Assembly (NCBI GenBank): GCA_016191555.1
Contig: JACPVX010000051.1
Coordinates: forward strand, 124,001 to 188,000
Length of the DNA: 64,000 nucleotides
From: Bacteroidota bacterium
GTDB taxonomy: Bacteria; Bacteroidota; Bacteroidia; Cytophagales; Cyclobacteriaceae
Reading direction: 5' to 3'
Position 1 is the first letter of the stretch, and each line of letters starts with the position of its first letter. The position numbers and the translations under genes are program-made. Below, in pieces: positions 47,298 through 60,458 of this stretch. The notes below the pieces were generated by a model, which worked only from the letters and a program-made list of their open reading frames with translations, did not search any database and had not been told where the DNA came from.

Positions 47298-47429
47298 CTG
47301 TTTCCTTTAGAAGTCTGAAAAATATTGATTTAATCCGACAACATCAATATTTCGTGGAGGTTGTGCCCACTTCGTTGTGCCCATTACTCTTTTCAGTATA
47401 TTCTTTGTTCTTTTGCAAGACAATTACCC

Positions 47430-48092
47430 ATGCTGTCAACCCAATCTTCTTTATTTTTTTGCGATGTGTGCGATACCCTGTACCGCTCGAATACCACCTT
47501 TGATTTCATCCGTTTTGTGGTAGCGAAAAGAGGGCGAGTTAGTCGCGTGCTATTGTGGGCAATTAGCAGCACTCAGTCGCCTTTATTTTATGTTTTGATT
47601 TTACTGAATAAGATAACATCTCGCGATTGGCCACGTCAATTGGCACTGCAATTTCTGCGCGGCATGTCGAGTGAAGAGCTAGAGAAAGAGGCCACTCAGT
47701 TTTATCAGCAGTATTTAGTCCCTCGAGCCAATCAAGAGGTTTTTCAATATATTAAAAAGCCTAGCGTTACCGCGATTTTATTGTCATCCAGTATTAGTCC
47801 GGTGATAAAAGCAATCGCCCAAGCAAATGGCCTTCTCTATTTTAGCTCCGAACTGGAGCTAAATGATGGAAAAGCAACCGGCCAACTTCAAATTGATATG
47901 ACAGGGCGCAAGCACGAGGTGGCAAAAAAGTTAATGGCTGAGCGCGCAATTCTTTCGGTGGGCGTAATCACGGATAATTACTCCGATTGGGAATTAGTGA
48001 AACTAGCTGATGAAAGGTTGGTAGTAGTTGCCAGCGAAGCGCAAAAGAATTTTTGGAAACCTTTGAGCCCCCATTTTATTGTAGTTTCATAG
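47430..48092 (+). CDS. HAD-family phosphatase (PSP-like)
   Basis: 220 aa from the ATG at 47430; the frame opens further upstream with non-conserved sequence. HAD motifs: I, FFCDVCDTLYRS with the nucleophilic Asp and general acid Asp; II, ILLSSSISPV with Ser; III, GRKHEVAKKL with Lys; IV, VITDNYSDWELVKLAD with acidic residues. It has a helical cap between motifs I and II (about 25-110). The stop is followed by the next ATG after 1 base. Together with the UbiA-like gene it could be the separated form of HAD-UbiA proteins. Confidence 0.85.
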   Translation: MLSTQSSLFFCDVCDTLYRSNTTFDFIRFVVAKRGRVSRVLLWAISSTQSPLFYVLILLNKITSRDWPRQLALQFLRGMSSEELEKEATQFYQQYLVPRANQEVFQYIKKPSVTAILLSSSISPVIKAIAQANGLLYFSSELELNDGKATGQLQIDMTGRKHEVAKKLMAERAILSVGVITDNYSDWELVKLADERLVVVASEAQKNFWKPLSPHFIVVS

Positions 48093-48093
48093 T

Positions 48094-48849
48094 ATGAGCC
48101 CAATCGCCTACTTGCCCTTTTTCTATTTTCAGAATACCCGATTGAATAATCGGAAAGCGTTTGTTTTCCATGCTGCCTATGAATGGTTGCCGGCAGCATT
48201 ATTGGCATTTTACTATTTCTCATCAGCTAGCACGCTGGTAAGTGTGATACTCTATTATCTAGCCTTTATTTCGGTTTATGAAATAGGTTACGTGATCAAC
48301 GACCAGCAGGCACATGAAGAAAAAGAAGGTCGCAAACGTTCCGAGCAACTCAATGCATTTCAATTGACGACTTTTATTGCGATTCGTTTGATTGTGTTTT
48401 TAATCATTACCACCCTTCAAAGTCAGATGCAATCAACTTTGTGGTGGGGTTGGTATCTATTGTTAGCCATTCAGTTTGCGTGGCACAATCTACTTACACT
48501 TCGTTCGCTAAAGGCTGTTACATTTTCGTTCTTAGCTTTCAGTCGTTTCTTTTCACCTATTATCATGTTGATACCTACAGCCATCAGTGCATCACTTGCA
48601 CTGCCGGTTTTTCTGAACTACGTCTTATTTCGTCTATTTACCTACCTCGATTCCAAGGACCTATTGAGGAATTTTGAACGAAAATCCGGTGCTTATTACA
48701 GGGGTTATTATCTCTTGATAATACCGTTTTCAATACTAATTGCCTATTTATATCAATCCTGGATTCCGCTGGCACTTAATGGATATTACCTTTTAATAGG
48801 CTTGGCATTTAGTCTTCTGCCATCTTCGGCAAAGGCAACTTCCGATTGA
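48094..48849 (+). CDS. UbiA-like multi-pass membrane protein
   Basis: 251 aa, about eight hydrophobic helices. Between helices 2 and 3 lies YEIGYVINDQQAHEEKEGRKRS, comparable to the first Asp-rich motif of UbiA prenyltransferases (NDxxDxxxD). A second acidic stretch, YLDSKDLLRNFERKSGA, lies near residue 195 where UbiA proteins have their second motif. UbiA enzymes join a polyprenyl diphosphate to an aromatic or sugar acceptor. The match is partial: Asp is replaced by His/Glu in part of the first motif. It starts 1 bp after the HAD gene stop. Confidence 0.55.
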   Translation: MSPIAYLPFFYFQNTRLNNRKAFVFHAAYEWLPAALLAFYYFSSASTLVSVILYYLAFISVYEIGYVINDQQAHEEKEGRKRSEQLNAFQLTTFIAIRLIVFLIITTLQSQMQSTLWWGWYLLLAIQFAWHNLLTLRSLKAVTFSFLAFSRFFSPIIMLIPTAISASLALPVFLNYVLFRLFTYLDSKDLLRNFERKSGAYYRGYYLLIIPFSILIAYLYQSWIPLALNGYYLLIGLAFSLLPSSAKATSD

Positions 48850-48886: not shown

Positions 48887-50122
48887 TTGAGCAAGTTGAC
48901 CGCAACTACTTCTACCCTCGCAAATGATTCGGAACAATTGACCGGAGGCTATCGCATGTGCAGCGTTACCGTAATGGATACGACTGTGCCCGGCATTACT
49001 TTTAACGAAAAAGGTGCTTGTAATTTTTGCGATTATTATGAAGCGCTTGCTACTCGCACGGTTTTGCGTGATCCGGCTGTATTGAAATCAGAATACGATG
49101 TCGCGATCCAAACCATCAAACACGAAGGCAGGAAAAAGAAATATGACTGTATTTTAGGAATCAGCGGGGGCATGGATAGCACCTATTTGGCTTGGCTCGC
49201 CAAAAAAGAAGGTCTCCGACCATTGCTGGTGCATTTTGATAATGGCTGGAATTCAGAATTAGCTGTTAAGAACATTGAAAATATAGTTAACATCCTCGGG
49301 TTTGATTTGCACACATTCGTGATGGACTGGGAGGAGTTTAGGGATTTACAACGAACCTATTTCGAAGCTTCTGTGGTGGATGTTGAGGTGCCAACCGATC
49401 AATTGATTTTTGCCGCACTCAATCGCATTGCCTACCAGAATAACATCAAATACATTTTAGCAGGTAATAATGTCGTCTGCGAATCGATCAATCCTGATGG
49501 TTGGGTTTACAAGGATAAACTTGATCTGGTAAACTTGCGCGATATTCATGCTACCTACGGTAGACTGAAACTTCGAAAGCTTCCCCGCCTGGGTATTATT
49601 CAGCGTTACTTTTACGAGGCCGTGGCCAGTATTCAAACGGTGAATCTGCTCGACTTGATTGCCTACAATAAAGCCAGCGTAAAAAAGCTTATCGAGAAAG
49701 AATTGAATTGGCGCGACTATGGTGGTAAGCACTATGAATCTGTATTCACCCGATTCTATCAGGGATATTATTTGCCTACCAAGTTTAACATCGACAAGCG
49801 AAAAGCACATCTTAGCAACTTGATTCTGTCAGGACAGATGACGCGATCGGAAGCGCTTACCATTTTGCAAACCCCTACTTATTTGGAAAAAGATCAGCAG
49901 GCTGATTTGCGTTACGTCATTAAGAAATTGGGATTTAGTGAGGCCGAGTGGGAAACCATTATGCGCAACCCTCGCGTTGAGCACGCTTCTTTTAAAACGG
50001 AGCGAGATTTTTCAACACGAGCATTTTATTTTCTATTTCGATCGGCCATGTACATACCTGTACGTTTGTTGCGCTTGATTGGAATACTTTCTCGAACCAA
50101 ACAAATCGGATCGCGATGGTAG
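48887..50122 (+). CDS. wbpG: N-acetyl-sugar amidotransferase (WbpG family), stand-alone copy
   Basis: 411 aa with a PP-loop ATPase fold: the ATP site GISGGMDSTYLA at about residue 91, LVHFDNGWNSELAVKNIENIV, and the family block NWRDYGGKHYESVFTRFYQGY with KRKAHLSNL. Family members use ATP and ammonia from HisH to convert an N-acetyl group into an acetamidino group on a nucleotide sugar. The N-terminal metal-site Cys pair is incomplete: Cys25 is followed by S-V-T where the paralogue at 54110 has C-T-R-C; the second pair C-N-F-C is intact. TTG start; the end overlaps hisH by 7 bp. Confidence 0.9.
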   Translation: MSKLTATTSTLANDSEQLTGGYRMCSVTVMDTTVPGITFNEKGACNFCDYYEALATRTVLRDPAVLKSEYDVAIQTIKHEGRKKKYDCILGISGGMDSTYLAWLAKKEGLRPLLVHFDNGWNSELAVKNIENIVNILGFDLHTFVMDWEEFRDLQRTYFEASVVDVEVPTDQLIFAALNRIAYQNNIKYILAGNNVVCESINPDGWVYKDKLDLVNLRDIHATYGRLKLRKLPRLGIIQRYFYEAVASIQTVNLLDLIAYNKASVKKLIEKELNWRDYGGKHYESVFTRFYQGYYLPTKFNIDKRKAHLSNLILSGQMTRSEALTILQTPTYLEKDQQADLRYVIKKLGFSEAEWETIMRNPRVEHASFKTERDFSTRAFYFLFRSAMYIPVRLLRLIGILSRTKQIGSRW

Positions 50123-50721
50123 TAATTATTGACTATGGTGTGGGCAACTTGATGGCCATCCAAAACATCATCCGCAAAGTAGGAGGTGATTCCGTGGTTT
50201 CATCTGATCCGCTAATAATCGAGCAGGCAGAAAAATTGATTTTGCCCGGGGTAGGTTCATTCGGGTATTGCGCACAGCAATTAAATAGCCGCAACCTCAT
50301 TCCGGTTTTAGAACAAGAAGTCTTGCAAAAGAAGAAACTGGTTCTCGGTCTTTGTGTGGGTGCGCAGTTGATGACATCAGGAAGTGAAGAGAGCCCGGAA
50401 AATGGATTGGGTTGGGTGGATGCTAAGACAGTGAAATTCAATACGGAGATTGTTCCAATTGTTCCGCACATGGGCTGGTGTGATGTTCATTTCAAAAGGC
50501 AATTGCCATTGAGCAAAGGTTTTGAAGACGGAGCCCGATTTTATTTTGTTCACTCGTATCACTTTGTGTTCGACAAACCAGAAGAAATCTTGGCCACCGC
50601 ACATTATGGTTATGATTTTACCTGTGCGTTTCAAAAAGAGAATATTTTAGGCGCGCAGTTTCATCCCGAAAAAAGCCATCGGTTTGGAATGAAATTATTT
50701 GAAAACTTTCTAGAGGCATAG
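50116..50721 (+). CDS. hisH: HisH-type glutamine amidotransferase subunit (glycan paralogue)
   Basis: 201 aa class I glutaminase. The nucleophile is Cys80 in VLGLCVGAQLM, and the His-Glu pair lies in AQFHPEKSHRFG. It makes ammonia from glutamine for a partner synthase. It overlaps the WbpG-type gene by 7 bp and is followed after 12 bp by a HisF paralogue. No other histidine biosynthesis gene is in the window, so it most likely feeds the sugar amidotransferase, as HisH2/HisF2 do with WbpG in Pseudomonas O-antigen loci. Confidence 0.9.
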   Translation: MVVIIDYGVGNLMAIQNIIRKVGGDSVVSSDPLIIEQAEKLILPGVGSFGYCAQQLNSRNLIPVLEQEVLQKKKLVLGLCVGAQLMTSGSEESPENGLGWVDAKTVKFNTEIVPIVPHMGWCDVHFKRQLPLSKGFEDGARFYFVHSYHFVFDKPEEILATAHYGYDFTCAFQKENILGAQFHPEKSHRFGMKLFENFLEA

Positions 50722-50733
50722 CCCGCAAAAGAA

Positions 50734-51507
50734 ATGAAACGAGTCAGGGTCATACCGGTAATCATGATTAACAGCGGCCGCGCAGTGATTACGCAGAAAT
50801 TCAGCAAACCTATTTATGTTGGGGACCCCATCAATTCGATCAAAATTTTAAATGACAAGGAGGTAGATGAGTTGGTGATTTTAGATATTACCGATAAGAA
50901 AATTCAAAAGAAGCCCGATTTTGAATTGATTGAGAAAATGGCATCTGAGAGCTTTATGCCATTGGCGTATGGTGGCCACGTAACCGAATTAGCCGATGCC
51001 GAAATTTTGCTGAAGTGTGGCATTGAAAAAATTTCATTTAACCGCGCGCTGTTTACGCATCCTGAAATGGTGAAAGAACTTTCTTACCGTGTAGGTAAGC
51101 AAAGCATTGTAGCCTCTATCGATGTTAACAAGAACTTACTCGGTACTTATCAAATCAAAACTAAAAACGGTAGCGAAACTGTTGGTTCGGACATTGAGCA
51201 AATTTTGCAAGATGTTTTGGAACTGGGAGTGGGTGAAATATTCCTAAATGTTATTTACCGGGATGGTACCATGGCCGGCTACGATGAGAAAATTTTGAAG
51301 CGTGTAACCAGCGCAGTAAATGTGCCGGTGATTGCGTGCGGTGGAGCTGCAACCACGGTCGATTTTTTAAAAGCTGTAAAGGAGGGAGGCGCATCAGCTG
51401 TGGCAGCAGGTGCTATGTTTTTTTTCAAAGGTGGGTTTAATAGTGTCTTGGTAAATTATCCCGATCAGAAAAAATTGCTTTCCGAATTTTACACGCACCT
51501 TGAATAA
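50734..51507 (+). CDS. hisF: HisF paralogue lacking the catalytic aspartate
   Basis: 257 aa TIM-barrel of the HisF family, with VASIDVNKNLLGTYQI and NVIYRDGTMAGYDEKILKRV at the expected places. The first strand reads RVIPVIMINSGR, where true HisF has IPCLDVKDGR, so the general acid Asp11 of histidine synthesis is Met11. This argues against a role in making imidazole glycerol phosphate and for an ammonia-channel partner in sugar amidation. The 3' end overlaps the flippase gene by 8 bp. Confidence 0.88.
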   Translation: MKRVRVIPVIMINSGRAVITQKFSKPIYVGDPINSIKILNDKEVDELVILDITDKKIQKKPDFELIEKMASESFMPLAYGGHVTELADAEILLKCGIEKISFNRALFTHPEMVKELSYRVGKQSIVASIDVNKNLLGTYQIKTKNGSETVGSDIEQILQDVLELGVGEIFLNVIYRDGTMAGYDEKILKRVTSAVNVPVIACGGAATTVDFLKAVKEGGASAVAAGAMFFFKGGFNSVLVNYPDQKKLLSEFYTHLE

Positions 51508-52882
51508 GCTAAAACAAATTTTTGGTGAAGGCTTGGCAGCCCTTCGAAAGGATGGCTCGTTTGCCCAAAGCTATGCGATCGTTCTTTCGGGAACGGGTAT
51601 CAACATTCTGGTGCAAATCCTTATTACGCCCATCGTTACTCGCATCTACGGGCCCGAGGCATATGGCACCTATTCCATCTTTAATGCCATAGCCACTAAC
51701 ATCGCTATGATTGCAACATTGCGGTTCCCACAAGCATTACTCTTACCACCGCAAGAACGAGATTTTCATATACTGATGCGGGTAACGCTGGTAAGTGCGC
51801 TTGTAACTACCGGCTTCACTTTTATTGCATTCTATTTTGCTGCTTCGCCTTTTTTGAAACTGTTGGGCGCTGAGAAATTGACTGATTATTACTTCTTAAT
51901 TCCCGCCATGGTTTTGTTGATTGCGCTCAACCAAATTTTTGGTCAATGGCAATACAGGTTAAATAGATTTAAAAAGTCAGTTGCAATCGACACAGGCGTT
52001 TTGGTGGGAGTACGAATTTTTAATCTGAGTTATGGATTGATGGCCACCCGAAATACGATTGGGTTATTATTGGGCGATATGCTTGGAAAAATAGTGGGTC
52101 TTGTTTTCAGCTGGCGACTAATCATTAAAGAGGAGATTCGATACCTCTTTTCTCCGGTTTCCCTTCAAGATTTTTGGAGGCTGGTAAAAGAGTATCAGCA
52201 ATACCCGATCTATAATTTGCCAGGTGTTTGGGCAACATTATTTTCTGAGCAGTTGGTCGTGTTTTTTGTTTCTTCGCAGTATGGCCTTCCAACCCTAGGG
52301 GTTTTGTCGTTGGCCATCAGCATGCTGGATTTACCAAAACGCTTGTTTGCCTACACTGTCACATCTGTATTTTTTAAAAAGGCCGTGGAGGTGTATAAAT
52401 CCTCGCTTGAAGAATTGCAGACGCTGGTACTACGAGTGATGTATGGATTATTAGCCGTGTGCATTTTGCCATACGGATTGGTAACGGCCTTTGGCAGTGA
52501 ACTATTCTCGTTTGTTTTTGGACAGGATTGGTTGCTCAGCGGAAAGTTGGCTCAATACATCGCGGTGTATTGTGTATTTGAATTGCTCTACATCTCGCTG
52601 GATTCCGTGTACTATGTTCTTCGTAAAGAAAAGCGACTATTTGTATTTCAAGTGGCCACTTTTGTGCTTCGCTTTGGTGTGATGTTTGCCAGCGTGCAAC
52701 TTTCAGCACCGTTGGAGCAGTGTATTTTGGCACTAACGATTGCCAATTCAATATTATACTTGTCGCATTTGGGTTACATTTTGCATTTGTTGAGATTAAA
52801 GTGGTTCAAGCATTTAGTTTTTATTGTCATGATTGAAGCATCATGTATTTTACTATTTCTAGGTTTTCGGCAGTTATTATGA
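51500..52882 (+). CDS. polysaccharide flippase (Wzx/oligosaccharide flippase family)
   Basis: 460 aa with about twelve to fourteen hydrophobic helices, the first at SYAIVLSGTGINILVQILITPIVTRIYGPEAYGTYSIFNAI, typical of MOP-superfamily flippases. It moves lipid-linked oligosaccharides across the inner membrane for O-antigen or capsule-like glycans. I use a TTG start at 51500 that overlaps the hisF stop by 8 bp; no ATG lies before the first helix. Part of the compact core operon. Confidence 0.88.
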   Translation: MNKLKQIFGEGLAALRKDGSFAQSYAIVLSGTGINILVQILITPIVTRIYGPEAYGTYSIFNAIATNIAMIATLRFPQALLLPPQERDFHILMRVTLVSALVTTGFTFIAFYFAASPFLKLLGAEKLTDYYFLIPAMVLLIALNQIFGQWQYRLNRFKKSVAIDTGVLVGVRIFNLSYGLMATRNTIGLLLGDMLGKIVGLVFSWRLIIKEEIRYLFSPVSLQDFWRLVKEYQQYPIYNLPGVWATLFSEQLVVFFVSSQYGLPTLGVLSLAISMLDLPKRLFAYTVTSVFFKKAVEVYKSSLEELQTLVLRVMYGLLAVCILPYGLVTAFGSELFSFVFGQDWLLSGKLAQYIAVYCVFELLYISLDSVYYVLRKEKRLFVFQVATFVLRFGVMFASVQLSAPLEQCILALTIANSILYLSHLGYILHLLRLKWFKHLVFIVMIEASCILLFLGFRQLL

Positions 52883-52949: not shown

Positions 52950-54113
52950 GTGAAAGTTACCTATTTAAGCATTGGCGAAGCCAGCCCAGGGGTCAGTAAA
53001 AAACTAAAGGACAAAACGGAAAGCTTTCGCGAGGCTGGTTTAGATGTACATTTAGTAATGGTAGGTACCGGTAAGGATGTAACTTCCGATACGATTACAG
53101 AACTGGAAGTAAGTCAATCGTTATCACAAAAGATAGGCAAGTTCTTTATTCTGTGGCGATTTTCAGTAGCACTTGAACAGTTGGCTTTATACAAAGCTAC
53201 CTTGAAATGGATTCGATCACATCCGGCTGATGTTATTTTGTTTCGCTATCCGGTTAGTGACTTTTTCCTGTGGTGGTTTATGCTTCGCTGTCAACAGCGT
53301 GTTGTGTTTGAATATAACACCATTGAAATTACAGAACTGAATTTGCGAAGATCAACATCCTTCTACTATCAGTATTTTTATTGGAGTGAACGCGTTTTTG
53401 GTAAGATGGTACGATCCCGTTCTTCCGGTATCATTGGTGTTACTCCAGAAATTGCCAATTATCAATCTAAGTTAGCAGGCGGAAAAATCCCAACGACTTC
53501 GATCAGTAATGGGATCAATGTGGAAAGAGTTGCAAAACATCGTGATTTGAAATTTGATGGACGCGAACTTACAATTGTATTGTTAGCCGGATCGCAGGCT
53601 CAATGGCATGGTGTTGATATTTTGTTGCGCAGTCTCTCTAAAGTAACTGGCGATTGCCTAATCAACTGTTTTTTGGCAGGGCAAATTACTGAACAGCAAA
53701 AGGAGTATGCACTTAAATTGCCGAATGTGACTGTGTTGCCAGGTCAATTTGGTGAAGACCTCGACCGTCTAATGGATCAATGTCATATCGGAATTGGAAC
53801 GTTGGGCTTTGAGAGCAGTTTTTTAACACAAGCTTGTCCGCTGAAAGTCCGCGAGTATTGGGCAAGAGGCATTCCATTTGTAATTGCGTATGAAGATGCT
53901 GATTTGATTAACAACGCTGAAATGCAGCCATTCTTTCTTCGGTTGGAGGTGAAAGACGGTCTCATTGACGTGAACGAGGTAATTAGTTTTGCTAAGAAGT
54001 TGTATGCTTCGGGTGATGTGGTAGTAAGGCTGCGCGAATTGGCAGCGCGTCAAATCGACTACCGGGTAAAGGCCATGCAATATGTTTCATTTATCAACTC
54101 GTTGCCAAAATGA
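52950..54113 (+). CDS. glycosyltransferase, GT4-like
   Basis: 387 aa with a two-domain GT-B layout. The C-terminal half has IVLLAGSQAQWHGVDILLRSL, NCFLAGQITEQQ, and a final donor-site region (LTQACPLKVREYWARGIPFVIAYEDADL). The start is GTG at 52950, 67 bp after the flippase gene, which is the largest gap in the core. The 3' end overlaps the next gene by 4 bp (ATGA). Sugar donor cannot be read from sequence. It probably adds one residue to the glycan. Confidence 0.82.
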   Translation: MKVTYLSIGEASPGVSKKLKDKTESFREAGLDVHLVMVGTGKDVTSDTITELEVSQSLSQKIGKFFILWRFSVALEQLALYKATLKWIRSHPADVILFRYPVSDFFLWWFMLRCQQRVVFEYNTIEITELNLRRSTSFYYQYFYWSERVFGKMVRSRSSGIIGVTPEIANYQSKLAGGKIPTTSISNGINVERVAKHRDLKFDGRELTIVLLAGSQAQWHGVDILLRSLSKVTGDCLINCFLAGQITEQQKEYALKLPNVTVLPGQFGEDLDRLMDQCHIGIGTLGFESSFLTQACPLKVREYWARGIPFVIAYEDADLINNAEMQPFFLRLEVKDGLIDVNEVISFAKKLYASGDVVVRLRELAARQIDYRVKAMQYVSFINSLPK

Positions 54114-56497
54114 AAAAAACAATTGTGGTTTTTACGATTGAATATCCAGATCCGTTATTGGATAAGGAACTTCCTTATTTGGCAGCGAATTTTGAAAAGG
54201 TTTATCTCCTTCCACAAAATCTGATTGGCACACCTTCACTTCCACCGAATGTGGAGGCATTTTCAATCTTTAAAAAAGTAAATTTAAAAAGGCCAATTCC
54301 CCTTTTGTTCAAACATTTTTTTAGAATTATTAGAATCTACAGTAGTAAACTCACTAACTCAACGTACCGCAAATATTATATAACGTATGTTAAAAGCTTT
54401 CTAGGCTACTTAGTTTTGGAATTGGAAAAGGTAAAGCCACTTCGCACTTTTATTGAAAAGCATCATTTGCAGGAAGCTATTTTTTATGATTACTGGTTAG
54501 TAGATGCAACACTGGCTTTAGCTGAACTGAAACGCGAGGGACTCATTAGGTATTCGATTGCTCGCACCCATGGATTCGATCTTTACCATGAGCGACAGTT
54601 TGAAAAACATGTAGCGTTTCAAGAGTACCGGGTAGCCTATCTTGATAAAGTATTCGCCATTAGCAACCATGGATTTGAGTATTTACATCATAAGCTACCG
54701 AAGGAACTACATAGTAGAATCGGATTAAATTATTTGGGTGTAGCCCCCCGGAAAATTGAGTTAGTTTCGAAGAAAGCAGGTGACGTTTGTACTATTGTAT
54801 CTTGTTCGGCAGTCATTGGTCTGAAGCGCGTAGCCTTGCTGGTGGATGTTCTAAAACGATGTAGTTTACCCATTCGCTGGGTGCATTTTGGTGATGGCCC
54901 TTTGATGGACGAGGTAAAAGAGAAGGTGAAGGAATTACCTTCTCATATTCAGGTTGATCTGAAAGGTAGCCAGCCGAACGAAAAGGTAATGGAGTTCTAT
55001 CAGCATAACTATGTAGATCTCTTTGTTTCATTCAGTCAATACGAAGGGCTACCCGTTTCGATGATGGAGGCCATCCAGTTTGGAATCCCTGTGATGGCTT
55101 GTGACATTTACGGTATTCCAGAAATTGTGACCGCCCAAACCGGAGTTTTGGTAAAAGTAGATGACGGAGAAGACGCCTTGGCGCTTATGCTGGAGCAAAC
55201 GTTAAGAACGCAACCGTTTGATAGAGAGAAAATCCGCCAGTTTTTTGAAAATCGTTTTAATGCTGAACGGAATTTTGAGCAATTTATTGACGATATTTCT
55301 GCTCAGTTACCTATGCAAGGCGCACCTACTAGTTCTAGTTCAAACATCGCATACCAGCAATGCACCCGATGCGTATTGGATACTTCCGATGATCCAAGTA
55401 TTACGTTTAACCAACAGGGCGTTTGCAGCTACTGCCAGCGATACGATAGCGAGGAAAAATTGCTTCTTAAGAGCCCCGAAAATATGCAAGTTGAGTTAGA
55501 GACTTGGGTGAATCGGATGAAAATGGCTGGGAAGGGGCAGAAGTATGATTGCATATTGGGCATAAGCGGAGGTGTGGATAGCACCTATCTGGCATATAAA
55601 GCTAAAGAATTTGGGCTTCGGCCGTTATTGGTTCACTTCGATAATGGATGGAATTCTGAATTGGCTGTGAAAAATATCGAAAACATTGTTACCAAGCTTG
55701 GCTTTGATCTTCACACATTCGTCATTGATTGGGATGAGTTTAGAAGCTTGCAGTTAGCTTTTTTACGGGCATCGGTGATTGACGTGGAGTTGCCAACAGA
55801 TCATGCCATGTTGGCCACCTTGTATAATCTGGCATTGCAGCACAAGATAAAATACATTCTAAGCGGTCATAATATTGTTTCTGAGCTGATCTTGCCGGAG
55901 AATTGGTATTTCAACAAACGCGATCATGTTCACATCCAAGCGATCAATGATCAGTTTGGCGAGGTGCCTTTGAAAACCTTTCCATTATTGACTTCCAAAT
56001 TGAAATTCCTTGTATCGTACCACGAGATTCAAAGCGTGGCTTTGTTGAACTATTTGCCGTACAACAAGGAAGAGGTGAAGAAAGTGATTATGGATAAGTT
56101 AGAATGGCGTGATTACGGAGGCAAACACTATGAATCTATTTTTACGCGATTCTACCAAGGCTACATTTTGATCAAGAAGTTTGGTGTGGATAAGCGCAAA
56201 GCACACTTATCCAATCTTATTTGCTCGAGACAAATAACGAAAGAACAAGCCATCGCTCAACTTGAAAAGCCCGCTTATGATCCACAGGTGTTTGCCACCG
56301 ACTATGAGTTTGTGTTGAAAAAATTTAAACTTACAAAAGCAGAGTTTGAAGAAATAATGAGTCGTCCGGTGAAAAAGCATACCGATTATCCGGTAGATAT
56401 ATCCATTTACGATCGCTATACGATCTTACGATTGGTGCGCCCCTTTTGGTTGGGCTTCAAAAAGATGCGACAGAAACTAAAACCGGCAACTGTTTAA
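54110..56497 (+). CDS. fusion: GT4 glycosyltransferase + WbpG-type N-acetyl-sugar amidotransferase
   Basis: 795 aa in one unbroken frame. Residues 1-400 are a GT4 enzyme (SCSAVIGLKRVALLVDVLKR, WVHFGDGP, and the E-x7-E box in SQYEGLPVSMMEAIQFG). A Ser/Thr linker at about 402-414 leads into a complete amidotransferase: CTRC at 418-421 and CSYC (metal-site pairs), GISGGVDSTYLA at about 484, VHFDNGWNSELAVKNIENIV, EWRDYGGKHYESIFTRFYQGY, and KRKAHLSNL. The amidotransferase half closely resembles the gene at 48887 but keeps all four Cys. It overlaps the previous gene by 4 bp. A single-enzyme link between adding and amidating a sugar is inferred from architecture only. Confidence 0.9.
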   Translation: MKKTIVVFTIEYPDPLLDKELPYLAANFEKVYLLPQNLIGTPSLPPNVEAFSIFKKVNLKRPIPLLFKHFFRIIRIYSSKLTNSTYRKYYITYVKSFLGYLVLELEKVKPLRTFIEKHHLQEAIFYDYWLVDATLALAELKREGLIRYSIARTHGFDLYHERQFEKHVAFQEYRVAYLDKVFAISNHGFEYLHHKLPKELHSRIGLNYLGVAPRKIELVSKKAGDVCTIVSCSAVIGLKRVALLVDVLKRCSLPIRWVHFGDGPLMDEVKEKVKELPSHIQVDLKGSQPNEKVMEFYQHNYVDLFVSFSQYEGLPVSMMEAIQFGIPVMACDIYGIPEIVTAQTGVLVKVDDGEDALALMLEQTLRTQPFDREKIRQFFENRFNAERNFEQFIDDISAQLPMQGAPTSSSSNIAYQQCTRCVLDTSDDPSITFNQQGVCSYCQRYDSEEKLLLKSPENMQVELETWVNRMKMAGKGQKYDCILGISGGVDSTYLAYKAKEFGLRPLLVHFDNGWNSELAVKNIENIVTKLGFDLHTFVIDWDEFRSLQLAFLRASVIDVELPTDHAMLATLYNLALQHKIKYILSGHNIVSELILPENWYFNKRDHVHIQAINDQFGEVPLKTFPLLTSKLKFLVSYHEIQSVALLNYLPYNKEEVKKVIMDKLEWRDYGGKHYESIFTRFYQGYILIKKFGVDKRKAHLSNLICSRQITKEQAIAQLEKPAYDPQVFATDYEFVLKKFKLTKAEFEEIMSRPVKKHTDYPVDISIYDRYTILRLVRPFWLGFKKMRQKLKPATV

Positions 56498-56505
56498 CTG
56501 CTGCT

Positions 56506-57594
56506 ATGGAATTTTTAAGTCAAAAGAAAATTCTAGTCATCTCACCTGAGTCATGGTCACACATTCCGGTTTCCAAGCACCATTATACTAAGGTGCTGGC
56601 GCAAAATGGCAATCAGGTTTTTTTTCTCAATCCGCCATCGAAAAAAAACGAAGTAAAAGAAGATAGTGCACATCCCGGAGTGTGGGTGGTTGATTATGTC
56701 GCCATCCCCGGTGTTAATCGATTGCCTTCGTTCTTGCGGGATTTGATCAACCGATATCAGATTCACCAATTAAAAAAACAGTGCAATACTTCTTTCGATG
56801 TGGTTTGGTCGTTTGACGCATTTCGTTTTCAAAATTTGAACTTGTTTAAAGCCAAGGTGTCTTTGTATCATGCGGTGGATGTTCACGTATCAGCCCTTGA
56901 AATGGAATTAGCATCTACCGCCAACATCATCTTGTCGGTATCGCAAAAAATTTTAGATCGGTATTCATTTACCAACAAGATTTTGAAAAAAATCAATCAC
57001 GGGTTAGGATCACACTTTTTTCAAAACTTGCCTACCACCGAACTACCTTCAGCTCCCTTGCACGTAGGTTACGTTGGCAATTTGGATAACTGGTGTATTG
57101 ATATCCCTACGTTGTTAGAAATTGTAGATACCCATCCTTCCGTTCATTTTACTTTCATTGGGCCATATAAAACGGATTCTATACTGGCAAAAGCGCTGCA
57201 AACGAAAGCGCATTGTACCTTACTTGGACGAGTACCCACAGAGAAGTTGCCAATGCTGTTTCAGCAGTTTCATTTTTTTGTGATGTGTTATAAAGGCGAT
57301 GAAGTGGATGTGAATTCCAACCATCATAAGATTTTGGAATACTTAACGACCGGAAAACCGGTGGTCATGAACTACACAGATGAGTACAACGACAAGCGAG
57401 ATATTGTAATCATGTCCGACCGAAATCAACAGCTTCCTGCGCTTTTCCAAGAAGTTTGCACTAATTTTAACTTCTATACCACAAACGACTTGGTGGAGAA
57501 ACGAAAAGTATTTGCGTTTTCAAATTCTTACCAACAACATGTGGGCACGATCGATCAACTCATGGTTCATTTTTTAGCTTCAGCGAATGATTAA
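56506..57594 (+). CDS. glycosyltransferase, GT4-like
   Basis: 362 aa from the ATG at 56506, 8 bp after the fusion gene; the frame extends upstream into that gene but the extra part is not conserved. The N-terminal half has ILVISPESWSHIPVSKHHYTKVL, WSFDAFRFQNL and LSVSQKILDRYS. The C-terminal half has LHVGYVGNLDNWCIDIPTLLEIV, HFTFIGPY, LLGRVPTEKLPMLFQQFHFFVMCYK, and HHKILEYLTTGKPVVM. Probably adds a sugar to the glycan. It overlaps the FkbM gene by 8 bp. Confidence 0.85.
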   Translation: MEFLSQKKILVISPESWSHIPVSKHHYTKVLAQNGNQVFFLNPPSKKNEVKEDSAHPGVWVVDYVAIPGVNRLPSFLRDLINRYQIHQLKKQCNTSFDVVWSFDAFRFQNLNLFKAKVSLYHAVDVHVSALEMELASTANIILSVSQKILDRYSFTNKILKKINHGLGSHFFQNLPTTELPSAPLHVGYVGNLDNWCIDIPTLLEIVDTHPSVHFTFIGPYKTDSILAKALQTKAHCTLLGRVPTEKLPMLFQQFHFFVMCYKGDEVDVNSNHHKILEYLTTGKPVVMNYTDEYNDKRDIVIMSDRNQQLPALFQEVCTNFNFYTTNDLVEKRKVFAFSNSYQQHVGTIDQLMVHFLASAND

Positions 57595-58426
57595 ATTTCT
57601 TTTACGCGCACTTCGAAAACTGGGTTTGATTCAACATTTGAATCTTACGTTTTCTTATGCCGTGCATGGTCGTGTGTATCGCATTCCTGTAAAGGGAGCT
57701 GTGGGTTTTGATCATTTTTTGGATGCAGAGCAGTGGATGAAAGATATATTAAAACGACTCATGACCGCACAGCCACAGAAAGCATTTTTAGATGTGGGTG
57801 TAAATGTCGGACAGACTTTACTTACCGTAAAAAGCATCAACAATGAGGTGCCTTACTATGGATTTGAACCCAATCCAATATGTGTTTCGTATGTTGCTGA
57901 CTTGATCGAAGCGAATCGTCTTAGGGCTACGGTCTATCCGGTGGGCTTGAGTAATAGCAGCGGGTTAGTGGTTCTTTATAAAGATGTACGACTACCGGGA
58001 GACAGCAGCGCCTCCATGATAAAAGAATTCAGAGATACACAAGGCAAGGTGGAAGTATTTGTTCCGATCCTTTCATGGGAACAGGTTCCGGCAAGAGAGC
58101 AGGCGATTCAGTTTGGCATTGTTAAAATTGATGTAGAAGGAGCCGAGTGGGAGGTTATTTCCGGCCTAGCTGAATTATTGGAACAACAACGCCCATTTAT
58201 CATCTGTGAAATCCTTCCGGTTTACACGAGCGATAACGCATTCCGCCTCGAGCGACAAGAAAAAATATTGCAACTTCTTAAGAAACTAAACTATGTCATT
58301 TTCCGAATTAGCCTTCAAGCTGAGTTGATTCCTTTACAAACAATTGAAGTGCACGGAAATTTGGTAGATAGCAACTATGTTTTCGCTCCGCAAGAGCGCG
58401 CATCGGCAATTTCAACAACAATGTAA
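57587..58426 (+). CDS. FkbM family methyltransferase
   Basis: 279 aa with the FkbM pattern: AFLDVGVNVGQTLLTVKSI (SAM motif I), YYGFEPNPICVSYV, LSNSSGLVVLYKD and VKIDVEGAEWEVISGLAEL. In glycan loci these enzymes O-methylate sugars. It overlaps both neighbours (8 bp upstream, 1 bp TAATG downstream), so it belongs to the same translationally coupled operon. Confidence 0.9.
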   Translation: MIKFLLRALRKLGLIQHLNLTFSYAVHGRVYRIPVKGAVGFDHFLDAEQWMKDILKRLMTAQPQKAFLDVGVNVGQTLLTVKSINNEVPYYGFEPNPICVSYVADLIEANRLRATVYPVGLSNSSGLVVLYKDVRLPGDSSASMIKEFRDTQGKVEVFVPILSWEQVPAREQAIQFGIVKIDVEGAEWEVISGLAELLEQQRPFIICEILPVYTSDNAFRLERQEKILQLLKKLNYVIFRISLQAELIPLQTIEVHGNLVDSNYVFAPQERASAISTTM

Positions 58427-59250
58427 TGCAGCCGCTGGTTTCTGTCATTATGCCGGTTTATAATGGCGAAAGGTATGTAGCGCAAGCGATCCAATCGGTT
58501 TTATCACAAACGTATCAACAGTTTGAATTGTTGATTGTGAACGATGGCAGCACCGATGGAACAGAACAAATTGTCAAGCAATTTACAGATCCTCGCATTC
58601 GTTACTTTGTTCAAAAAAATGCAGGTGTTTCAGCAGCGCGTAATTTGGCGCTAGCAAATAAGAAGGGTACCTATTTTTGCTGTTTGGATGGTGATGATGT
58701 GCTTCCACAAAATTCGATTCAAAGTAGAATGGAAGTTTTTGGCCGCTCCTCAGCAATTACATTTGTAGACGGCTTGGTTTTCGTATTTGATGCATCGCTT
58801 CAAAAGCTATTGTACCAATGGAGACCTCGCAAAGAGGGCCATGTGTTTCGGGAATTAATTCGACTTACAGGCAACTGTTTTTTTGGCCCTACTTGGATGG
58901 TGAAAGTAATGCCGGAAACGATCTATTGTTTTGCGGATGGAATGACGCATGGAGAGGATTTGCTCTTTTATATATCCATCGCAAATGGTGGCGAGTATGC
59001 GTATACCGAAGATTGCATTCTTCATTATAGAAAAAATGAGCAATCGGTGATGAATAACTTGGCTGGTCTAGGAAGAGGTTATGCAGTTTTAGCTTCAAAA
59101 CTAGCTCAAACGCAAGGTGACGATTTTACGATGTGGGATCGACTTCTATTTCATTTGAAGATTCGGAAAATCATGTTTTTGTCTTTTTGCTCTAATAGAG
59201 ACTACCGAAGAGCTTTTGAATATGTAATTTTGGGGAAAACAAAAGAATAA
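58426..59250 (+). CDS. glycosyltransferase family 2
   Basis: 274 aa with the GT-A start PLVSVIMPVYNGERYVAQAIQSVL, then LIVNDGSTDGTEQIV, the AGVSAARNLAL segment, and the metal-binding CLDGDDVL (a DxD-like motif). The C-terminal half is the usual acceptor domain. It adds one sugar from a nucleotide donor on the cytoplasmic side. It is joined to the next gene by a one-base TAATG overlap. Confidence 0.92.
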   Translation: MQPLVSVIMPVYNGERYVAQAIQSVLSQTYQQFELLIVNDGSTDGTEQIVKQFTDPRIRYFVQKNAGVSAARNLALANKKGTYFCCLDGDDVLPQNSIQSRMEVFGRSSAITFVDGLVFVFDASLQKLLYQWRPRKEGHVFRELIRLTGNCFFGPTWMVKVMPETIYCFADGMTHGEDLLFYISIANGGEYAYTEDCILHYRKNEQSVMNNLAGLGRGYAVLASKLAQTQGDDFTMWDRLLFHLKIRKIMFLSFCSNRDYRRAFEYVILGKTKE

Positions 59251-60458
59251 TGCGGCTATTGTTCGTCAGTTATTGGGGATTGAATGAGGGGTTAACAGCC
59301 GCAACTGTTCTGCCGCATCTGCAAATATTGGCTAGCATTGAAACGATTGATCAAATCATATTTTGTTCCATTGAGCGAGGTGGAGAGCCAATTGCGACAG
59401 GCCCCATTCTACACCCGAAAATTTTGCACATACCTTTAGTTTCCCAACCTAAAGGAAATGTTTTTTTAACGAAAGCCAACGACTTCATTTCTTTTCCACG
59501 CCAGTTAATACAAATTTGTGAGGAGTATCAAATTGATAAGATGATTTGCCGATCGCCCATGGCAGGCGCCTTAGGCTATCTGGCAGCGCGTAAAAACAAT
59601 ATTCCGTTTGTGGTTGAATCATTTGAACCGCATGCAGAGAGTATGATTGAGTCGGGCGTGTGGACTAAATTAGATCCTCGGTATTGGATTGAACTATATT
59701 TTGAACGACAACAAGTGAAAGCTGCCGGTAAAATATTTCCGGTGAGTTTCCATCACAAAAAGCGGTTGATGGAAGAAGGGCTGAGCGAAAATAAAATCAT
59801 AGTGATGCCCTGCTGTGTGGCACTTGATAAATTTAAGTATGATGCCGCAAAGCGATCAGCGATCCGCCTCCAACTTGGAATTCAAGAAAATCAAACCGTT
59901 GGAATTTATGTAGGTAAATATGGTGGTATTTATTACGATCAGGAAGCGTTTGATCTTTATCGAGATGCCTTTCATTTTTTTGGGGAATCATTTCGTCTGA
60001 TCATTTTAACAGAACAAGACCGTTCAGAAGTGCTAAAGAAATGTTTGGAGCGAGGCGTTGATGCGAACTACCTATTTATTCATCGCGCTAAGCACGATGA
60101 AGTAAATGCATATTTATCAGCAGCCGATTTTGCCTTTAGCACGATTAAGCCGGTGCCCAGCAGGCTGTATTGCTCGCCTATTAAAAATGGCGAGTATTGG
60201 GCAAATGGTTTGCCCATTATTACTGAAATGAATATCGGTGACGACTCTGATATAATCGTTCGGGAAGGTGGAGGAGTAATCTTAGATCGCAACCATCCAG
60301 CGAATGCTTTTCAGAAGTTGAAAGAGTTAATATCGAAGGGGCGAGCGCGCAATTCGGAGGAAATTCAACGCCTTGCTCAAAGGCACCGAAGCATGGATGT
60401 GGTCGAGTCAATTTATCGACAAGAATTTACCGATTCATCCAAACTTACCAACATCTGA
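59250..60458 (+). CDS. glycosyltransferase, GT4-like
   Basis: 402 aa with a two-domain layout: N-terminal MRLLFVSYWGLNEGLTAATVLPHLQIL and DKMICRSPMAGALGYLAAR; C-terminal VGIYVGKYGGIYYDQEAFDLY, SFRLIILTEQDRSE, and a donor-binding end SPIKNGEYWANGLPIITEM. Last gene of the core operon before the secreted PKD gene. Donor unknown. Confidence 0.83.
   Translation: MRLLFVSYWGLNEGLTAATVLPHLQILASIETIDQIIFCSIERGGEPIATGPILHPKILHIPLVSQPKGNVFLTKANDFISFPRQLIQICEEYQIDKMICRSPMAGALGYLAARKNNIPFVVESFEPHAESMIESGVWTKLDPRYWIELYFERQQVKAAGKIFPVSFHHKKRLMEEGLSENKIIVMPCCVALDKFKYDAAKRSAIRLQLGIQENQTVGIYVGKYGGIYYDQEAFDLYRDAFHFFGESFRLIILTEQDRSEVLKKCLERGVDANYLFIHRAKHDEVNAYLSAADFAFSTIKPVPSRLYCSPIKNGEYWANGLPIITEMNIGDDSDIIVREGGGVILDRNHPANAFQKLKELISKGRARNSEEIQRLAQRHRSMDVVESIYRQEFTDSSKLTNI

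Follow-up and report, generated by a model that had tools for sequence, protein, structure and literature searches.

The window analysed here is a stretch of 64,000 nucleotides from a Bacteroidota bacterium of the family Cyclobacteriaceae (assembly GCA_016191555.1, contig JACPVX010000051.1, positions 124,001 to 188,000 of the forward strand). Positions 54110-56497 of its plus strand form one open frame with an ATG start and 795 codons. The predicted product is a single chain in which a GT4 glycosyltransferase (GT) is joined through a short disordered linker to an N-acetyl sugar amidotransferase (NASAT) of the WbuX/WbpG type. The GT half (residues 1-401, 54110-55312, plus strand) contains the Pfam domain Glycos_transf_1 (PF00534) at residues 229-368, with 65 bits against a cut-off of 26.4, and the EX7E motif (E312-E320), which is the mark of GT4 glycosyltransferases. 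Its score with any NCBIfam glycosyltransferase model is at most 48 bits, in all cases far below the cut-off; a separate orthologue of it is encoded in another genome of the same genus, G016. The linker comprises residues 402-412 (55313-55345, plus strand). The fused NASAT half, AT2 (55346-56494, plus strand), matches the NCBIfam model for N-acetyl sugar amidotransferases, TIGR03573, over residues 416-750 with 301 bits (curated cut-off 203.2). The motif scan finds in it the PP-loop SGGVDS (pattern SGGxDS; residues 486-491, 55565-55582) and the tetracysteine C418/C421/C439/C442, which reads CTRC...GVCSYC and agrees with the pattern CxxC-Xn-[GN]xCxxC.

The AlphaFold2 model of the full chain, computed from a 42-row alignment, has a mean predicted local distance difference test score (pLDDT) of 90.9 and consists of two confident domains, with residues 402-412 below 50. 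When the model was searched with Foldseek, ranks one to six were occupied by BshA-type GT4s and by the solved NASAT, LpNASAT (PDB 8WEX). The BshA matches fall on the GT half, which has the GT-B fold (E 1e-16), and the 8WEX matches on AT2 (E 7.5e-16 and 7.9e-16, prob 1.00, TMt 0.65-0.67). AT2 shares with LpNASAT, also a TIGR03573 protein, the score above cut-off, the PP-loop, the tetracysteine and the fold, but it is the C-terminal half of a GT4 protein, and no such fusion is named in the accessible part of PMC10607449. The GT half resembles the BshA-like retaining GT4s in Glycos_transf_1, EX7E and fold, whereas the window protein adds a C-terminal NASAT. The initial annotation had described a single 795-codon frame containing both enzymes and had suggested a domain search and a structure prediction; the open reading frame (ORF) check, Pfam, TIGR03573, AlphaFold2 and Foldseek all bear it out, and the two domains are recovered with the motifs of both families.

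The two genes could have been joined by a sequencing or assembly error, and the window genome is a draft in 91 contigs that is 77% complete. The window protein was used to scan the genome contigs of 84,980 species, one genome per species, with patterns that reach close kin only. Two further carriers were found, the Flammeovirgaceae metagenome-assembled genomes CoA8_M5 (L015, JAJTHV010000429.1) and UBA5008 (L016, DGYK01000060.1). Each encodes the fusion as a single ORF of 793 amino acids that is 84% identical to the window protein. Because these two genomes were assembled separately and encode the same 793-residue protein, and the difference in linker length is in frame, the artefact is rejected; we give it practically no credence. 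A stop or frameshift near 55310, named at the outset as a possible refutation, is absent from the window sequence, and the frame is likewise uninterrupted in both relatives. In a separate search, nine plasmid records were returned, in none of which did one place cover 80% of the query.

The linker changes fast and differs between the window and the two relatives by two codons (6 nt), in frame. The serine/threonine linker of the initial annotation is present in this genome, but it is not kept: the corresponding stretch in L015 and L016 reads PMQRALSEPSKTF and AMPHVSSHPTRTY. In a Nei-Gojobori comparison of the window gene with these two, synonymous sites are saturated (proportion of synonymous differences, pS, >0.8), and the nonsynonymous distance, dN, amounts to 0.12-0.14 for the GT half and 0.07-0.08 for the AT half. 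On these estimates both halves are under purifying selection. An in-frame methionine, Met402, stands at the start of the linker in all three fused genes and may be left over from the original start codon of the amidotransferase. It was also considered as a working second start: the fraction of A in the 25 bases upstream of it is 0.12-0.20, compared with 0.20-0.52 for nine listed starts.

The abundance of such fusions was studied by searching TIGR03573 in overlapping whole-genome samples, all within Bacteroidota, at E-value limits from 1e-20 to 1e-50. Fused genes were recognised by the length of the stop-to-stop frame. In the family, class, order and phylum samples scoring was limited to five candidates per genome, and the counts are lower bounds. 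Fused frames were found in 4 of the 25 genomes with a NASAT match in the genus sample (62 genomes), in 7 of 61 in the family sample (390 genomes) and in at least 17 of 130 in the class sample (395 genomes). The order sample (390 genomes, 92 with a match) and the phylum sample (395 genomes, 60 with a match) each have the window's own frame as the sole one above cut-off of at least 590 residues; the order sample also contains TIGR03573 frames of 519-561 residues in G421, G255 and G360. The last two samples suggested a fusion private to the window, and this was overturned by the genus, family and class samples. The premise that WbpG-family proteins are separate enzymes thus describes the usual state but is no rule.

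NASATs above cut-off that are fused behind another domain occur in 23 genomes, and the partner is N-terminal in all 23 of the loci, which were all fetched. Pfam was run on 19 of them; the remaining four (L075-L078) were placed by 57-67% identity of their GT halves to that of the scanned L074. A full-length GT4, of one of four groups, is the partner in 14: the window trio, seven of two other families, three of the kind designated GT4X, and L091. The EX7E pattern failed in the three GT4X fusions, of which L058, by eye, has Asp in the first place. One partner is a GT2 (L086). The others, with the coordinates of the whole fused gene, are a hexapeptide O-acetyltransferase-like domain (L087:5946-7727, plus strand), a GATase with asparagine synthase (L089:6018-9092, minus strand) and the N-terminal domain alone of a GT4 (L088:5502-7277, plus strand), besides a domain of about 355 residues in three loci (L081-L083) and one of about 295 residues in two (L084, L085). 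The last two kinds have no Pfam assignment and gave no match in a sequence search of the PDB. The model of the 355-residue partner has low confidence (pLDDT 54.6) and a Foldseek TM of about 0.3 to GT-B proteins, both GTs and UDP-GlcNAc 2-epimerases. One of the two 295-residue members has a sub-threshold GT2 match (E 0.0053), and an acidic D-x-D-D stretch is seen by eye. Both kinds thus show weak signs of a glycosyltransferase fold. The reverse order is found at L020:3823-6212 (plus strand), where a NASAT is followed, with a 4-bp overlap, by a 31% relative of the window GT half.

The origin of the fusion can be approached through G016. This genome has the same cluster in the same order (HAD, UbiA, AT1, HisH, HisF, Wzx, GTa, GT, AT2, GTb, FkbM, GT2, GTc), but its GT and AT2 are encoded separately, with an 11-bp overlap between the genes; its GT is 46% identical to the window GT half. 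In G011 and G806, AT2 lies behind a different GT4, with overlaps, counted from the first start codon, of 8 and 64 bp. The simplest account would be that the fusion joined an overlapping gene pair; the alternative is that the state in G016 is a split of an older fusion. A careful tree was calculated for 72 NASAT domains from loci that were chosen, not random. Rows with less than 150 bits to AT1/AT2 were dropped (among them L031-L039, L048, L049, L053, L055, L056, L066 and L093), and the duplicates L001-L014 and L068 and the plasmid L057 were also left out. The fused AT2 belongs to a well supported clade (100/99) of ten NASATs, seven of them fused to a GT4. The three unfused members lie directly behind a GT4 gene, with overlaps of 8, 11 and 64 bp from the first start codon. 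The GT4s of this clade belong to three kinds, between which BLAST shows partial similarity at most, which indicates that proximity to a GT4, rather than one particular GT4, has been kept. In a quick GT tree, in which several branches are long, the GTs of the window trio cluster with the unfused G016 GT, and those of the GT4X fusions with the unfused GTs from G011 and G806. Taken together, the two trees indicate that distant GT4s took the same place beside the same NASAT clade.

One inherited GT4A fusion is rejected: the approximately unbiased (AU) test does not accept the ten GT4A fusions as one NASAT clade (p 7e-45; 3e-77 on the core only). Exchange of the GT or of the NASAT at a later time could lead to the same result. 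AT2 looks mosaic when identity is calculated in windows of 25 columns. The window and G011 sequences are 36-60% identical over columns 25-100 and 72-100% over columns 100-400, a stretch that starts at the PP-loop. Between G011 and G806 the identity is 60-92% in the first stretch and 24-96% beyond it, and the GT4s upstream of these two share 86% identity. It seems that the GT travels with the N-terminal end of AT2 and that the breakpoint lies at the conserved core. Between L018:9984-11132 and window positions 55346-56494 the identity jumps at the PP-loop, as if a GT and the N-terminal end of a NASAT had been exchanged by recombination.

These data bear on the possibility that the fusion is a by-product of overlapping operon genes, in which the loss of a stop or frame was tolerated, or provided equal dosage, with no substrate being handed over. 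The nine unfused NASATs that lie directly behind a GT4 either overlap it (five, by 4-64 bp) or adjoin it (four, at 0-21 bp), the same cluster exists unfused in G016, and the linker is disordered and variable. The fusion has, however, been retained across saturated synonymous divergence, the GT4A-type fusions do not form one NASAT clade, and parsimony requires at least nine changes between the fused and unfused states on the NASAT tree, or eight on the core columns. We consider this origin improbable.

The genes around the fusion probably form an O-antigen- or glycoprotein-type glycan cluster, all features of which lie on the plus strand from AT1 onward. AT1 (48887-50122, TTG start) is a stand-alone amidotransferase paralogue with 265 bits to TIGR03573. 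It is followed by a HisH-type glutaminase (50116-50721, TIGR01855, 216 bits), a HisF-like protein of the AglZ/HisF2 kind (50734-51507) and a Wzx-type flippase (51500-52882, PF01943). The HisF-like protein scores 294 bits with NF038364, just short of the curated equivalog (cut-off 310). Two GT4 genes, identified by Pfam and ORF, flank the fusion: GTa (52950-54113) overlaps it by 4 bp, and the first start codon of the frame of GTb (56446-57594) falls inside it. They are followed, at 57587-60458, by an FkbM methyltransferase, a GT2 and a further GT4, GTc, as identified by Pfam, in an order that is the same in L016 and L017. Upstream of AT1, a HAD-type gene adjoins a UbiA-like one (47361-48849). 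The pair is present in five related NASAT loci (the window, L016:328-1747, L017:13899-15394, L058:13988-15389 and L067:3987-5406).

AT1 and AT2 are 50% identical over 368 aligned columns. The initial annotation had pointed to a two-amidotransferase locus; the second TIGR03573 copy at 48887 is real, but the layout is nothing unusual. Of the 83 genomes above cut-off in the order sample, at least 10, the window's included, have two NASAT genes within 30 kb on one contig, and two NASATs in one locus are thus common. The HisF2-like gene of the cluster is the best match in its genome, the next two (206 and 100 bits) being likely hisF/hisA, which adjoin on another contig; one HisHF pair therefore probably serves both AT1 and AT2. 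The locus shares HisH and AglZ/HisF2-like proteins with the acetamidino systems WbpG-HisH-HisF and WbuX-WbuY-WbuZ (names from PMC10607449 and the NCBIfam descriptions), but differs in that a single HisHF pair accompanies two NASATs, of which one is a GT4 fusion.

The motif scan finds no full tetracysteine in AT1 and in 26 others of the 49 unfused NASATs of the chosen set. The pattern is present in 22 of the 23 fused NASATs, compared with 22 of the 49 unfused, and in the remaining fused one, L080, the pattern overlooked two CxxC pairs. Long frames and paired copies guided the choice of loci, and the proportions should not be read as frequencies. The tetracysteine is not claimed as a requirement for fusion, as six independent pairs on supported branches leave the sign test without power (median p 1). 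NASATs that lack part of this zinc-binding motif, which is described as a hallmark of the family, are numerous in Bacteroidota (AT1, L021-L028), and several of them have no second NASAT beside them in the stretch that was fetched.

The reading that we prefer is that the fusion is a bifunctional amidinating glycosyltransferase fed by HisH and HisF. The NASAT half would use ATP and ammonia, the latter delivered by the HisH-HisF pair of the same cluster, to convert a sugar's N-acetyl group into an acetamidino group. The GT4 half at the N-terminus would then add the amidinated sugar to the growing lipid-linked chain by retaining transfer from an NDP-sugar donor. The short flexible linker would hold the two active sites close, so that the amidinated sugar could be handed on at once. 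Amidation of the nucleotide sugar before transfer is the more likely order. We assign this reading a probability of roughly 0.48. Both halves keep their motifs (EX7E; SGGVDS; CxxC...CxxC), and the purifying selection on them and the proximity to a GT4 throughout the clade of ten also speak for it. Downstream of the fused AT of G813 and G962 come an overlapping HisH and then HisF, and this AT is the sole NASAT reported for each genome at the thresholds used, which indicates that a fused AT can be the partner of HisHF. The recurrence of fusions with different glycosyltransferases supports the coupling of amidation to transfer that the initial annotation had suggested.

Several observations weigh against this reading. 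We infer the enzymatic activity, the ammonia source, the order of the steps and the identity of the sugar. Translation from Met402 could also give a free AT. The predicted template modelling score (pTM) of the AlphaFold2 model is only 0.55, which leaves the relative placement of the GT and NASAT domains undefined in it, and a channel between the active sites is not visible. The GT and AT trees disagree, and the pair did not simply coevolve. When the upstream neighbours of the 49 unfused NASATs were labelled with our own GT4 profile and BLAST seeds, a GT4 was recognised in 9, HisF in 17 and an unclassified neighbour in 14. Fusions are spread unevenly, with none besides the window's in the order and phylum samples, and some NASATs are fused to a hexapeptide acyltransferase, an asparagine synthase or half a GT4. 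HisF2 lies on another contig in several fusion-bearing genomes, and 2 of 20 have no HisF2 match.

The order of the two steps could also be reversed: the GT4 half would add an N-acetyl sugar to an undecaprenyl-linked chain, on which the tethered AT half would then amidinate it. The nature of the partners is consistent with this order, with 14 full-length GT4s and one GT2 among the 23, and one partner whose highest scores, below cut-off, are with O-acetyltransferases such as WbbJ and WcaF. No dehydratase, aminotransferase or dehydrogenase of nucleotide sugars was recognised among the partners, five of which are unassigned. The accessible part of PMC10607449 describes an unusually wide, open pocket for 8WEX. 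A fusion to the next step of the pathway is, however, equally expected if amidation precedes transfer, and the Foldseek matches of the 355-residue partner (model pLDDT 54.6) include UDP-GlcNAc 2-epimerases besides GTs. Acetamidino nonulosonic acids, moreover, are generally held to be completed at the CMP-sugar stage, ahead of their transfer. Transfer before amidation is unlikely on balance, though it deserves serious consideration.

A broader proposal, to which we lend rather less credit, is that the NASATs of Bacteroidota include GT-borne tailoring enzymes that act at glycan assembly, as or after the sugar joins the lipid carrier. The conserved NASAT core would serve as a crossover anchor for swapping the GT and the zinc-ribbon end between strains. 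If this were true, the glycan would change while the amidine stays.

NASAT-like domains also occur in other architectures. In three loci, modules of nonribosomal peptide synthetases (NRPSs) with condensation, AMP-binding and PP-binding domains contain a WbuX-like domain (L031:2-4204 and L032:1750-5865, plus strand; L033:3525-7541, minus strand). It follows the AMP-binding core and, in L031, precedes AMP-binding_C; in L031 it scores 143 bits with TIGR03573, below cut-off. A possible interpretation is an amidine-forming NRPS module. In three proteins of 605-679 residues (L034:3043-5079, plus strand; L035:4410-6443 and L036:4054-5868, minus strand), an N-terminal class-II glutamine amidotransferase is combined with a C-terminal WbuX-like domain (153 bits in L034, below cut-off). 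These proteins perhaps carry their own ammonia supply.

According to the structure-based proposal in the accessible part of PMC10607449, NASATs ligate ammonia to the N-acetyl group of a sugar, with ATP being converted to AMP and PPi; use of ATP and a zinc-binding tetracysteine are proposed there for the 8WEX protein. In Tannerella forsythia, Tanf_01265, a 605-residue AsnB-type protein, has been proposed to form the acetamidino group of a glycan (PMC6120980, in the part available). It resembles the present case in its Bacteroidota glycan cluster and in the proposed acetamidino formation, but, compared by description only, it is an AsnB without a GT. The order of amidation and transfer is not settled in the accessible parts of PMC3958885, PMC7371886, PMC6120980, PMC7468200, PMC11340318, PMC8657804 and PMC8305728. 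A search of titles and abstract openings of the open-access literature found no description of a GT-NASAT fusion, and the parts available of two papers on fusions and networks (PMC4039749, PMC11237513) do not mention one. The survey of architectures that had been proposed yielded fusions of the same kind in 23 Bacteroidota genomes, but no published account. Both halves belong to known families; their joining in one architecture and its recurrence look undescribed.

The timing of acetamidino addition to bacterial surface sugars has been inferred rather than demonstrated in the literature, as far as the accessible parts go. Here an amidating enzyme is naturally tied to a glycosyltransferase, more than once, so that the order of the steps becomes testable with one purified protein. 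For annotation, a single NASAT match can hide a glycosyltransferase. A NASAT that lies within a GT gene or directly downstream of one points to a GT that may handle the amidino sugar.

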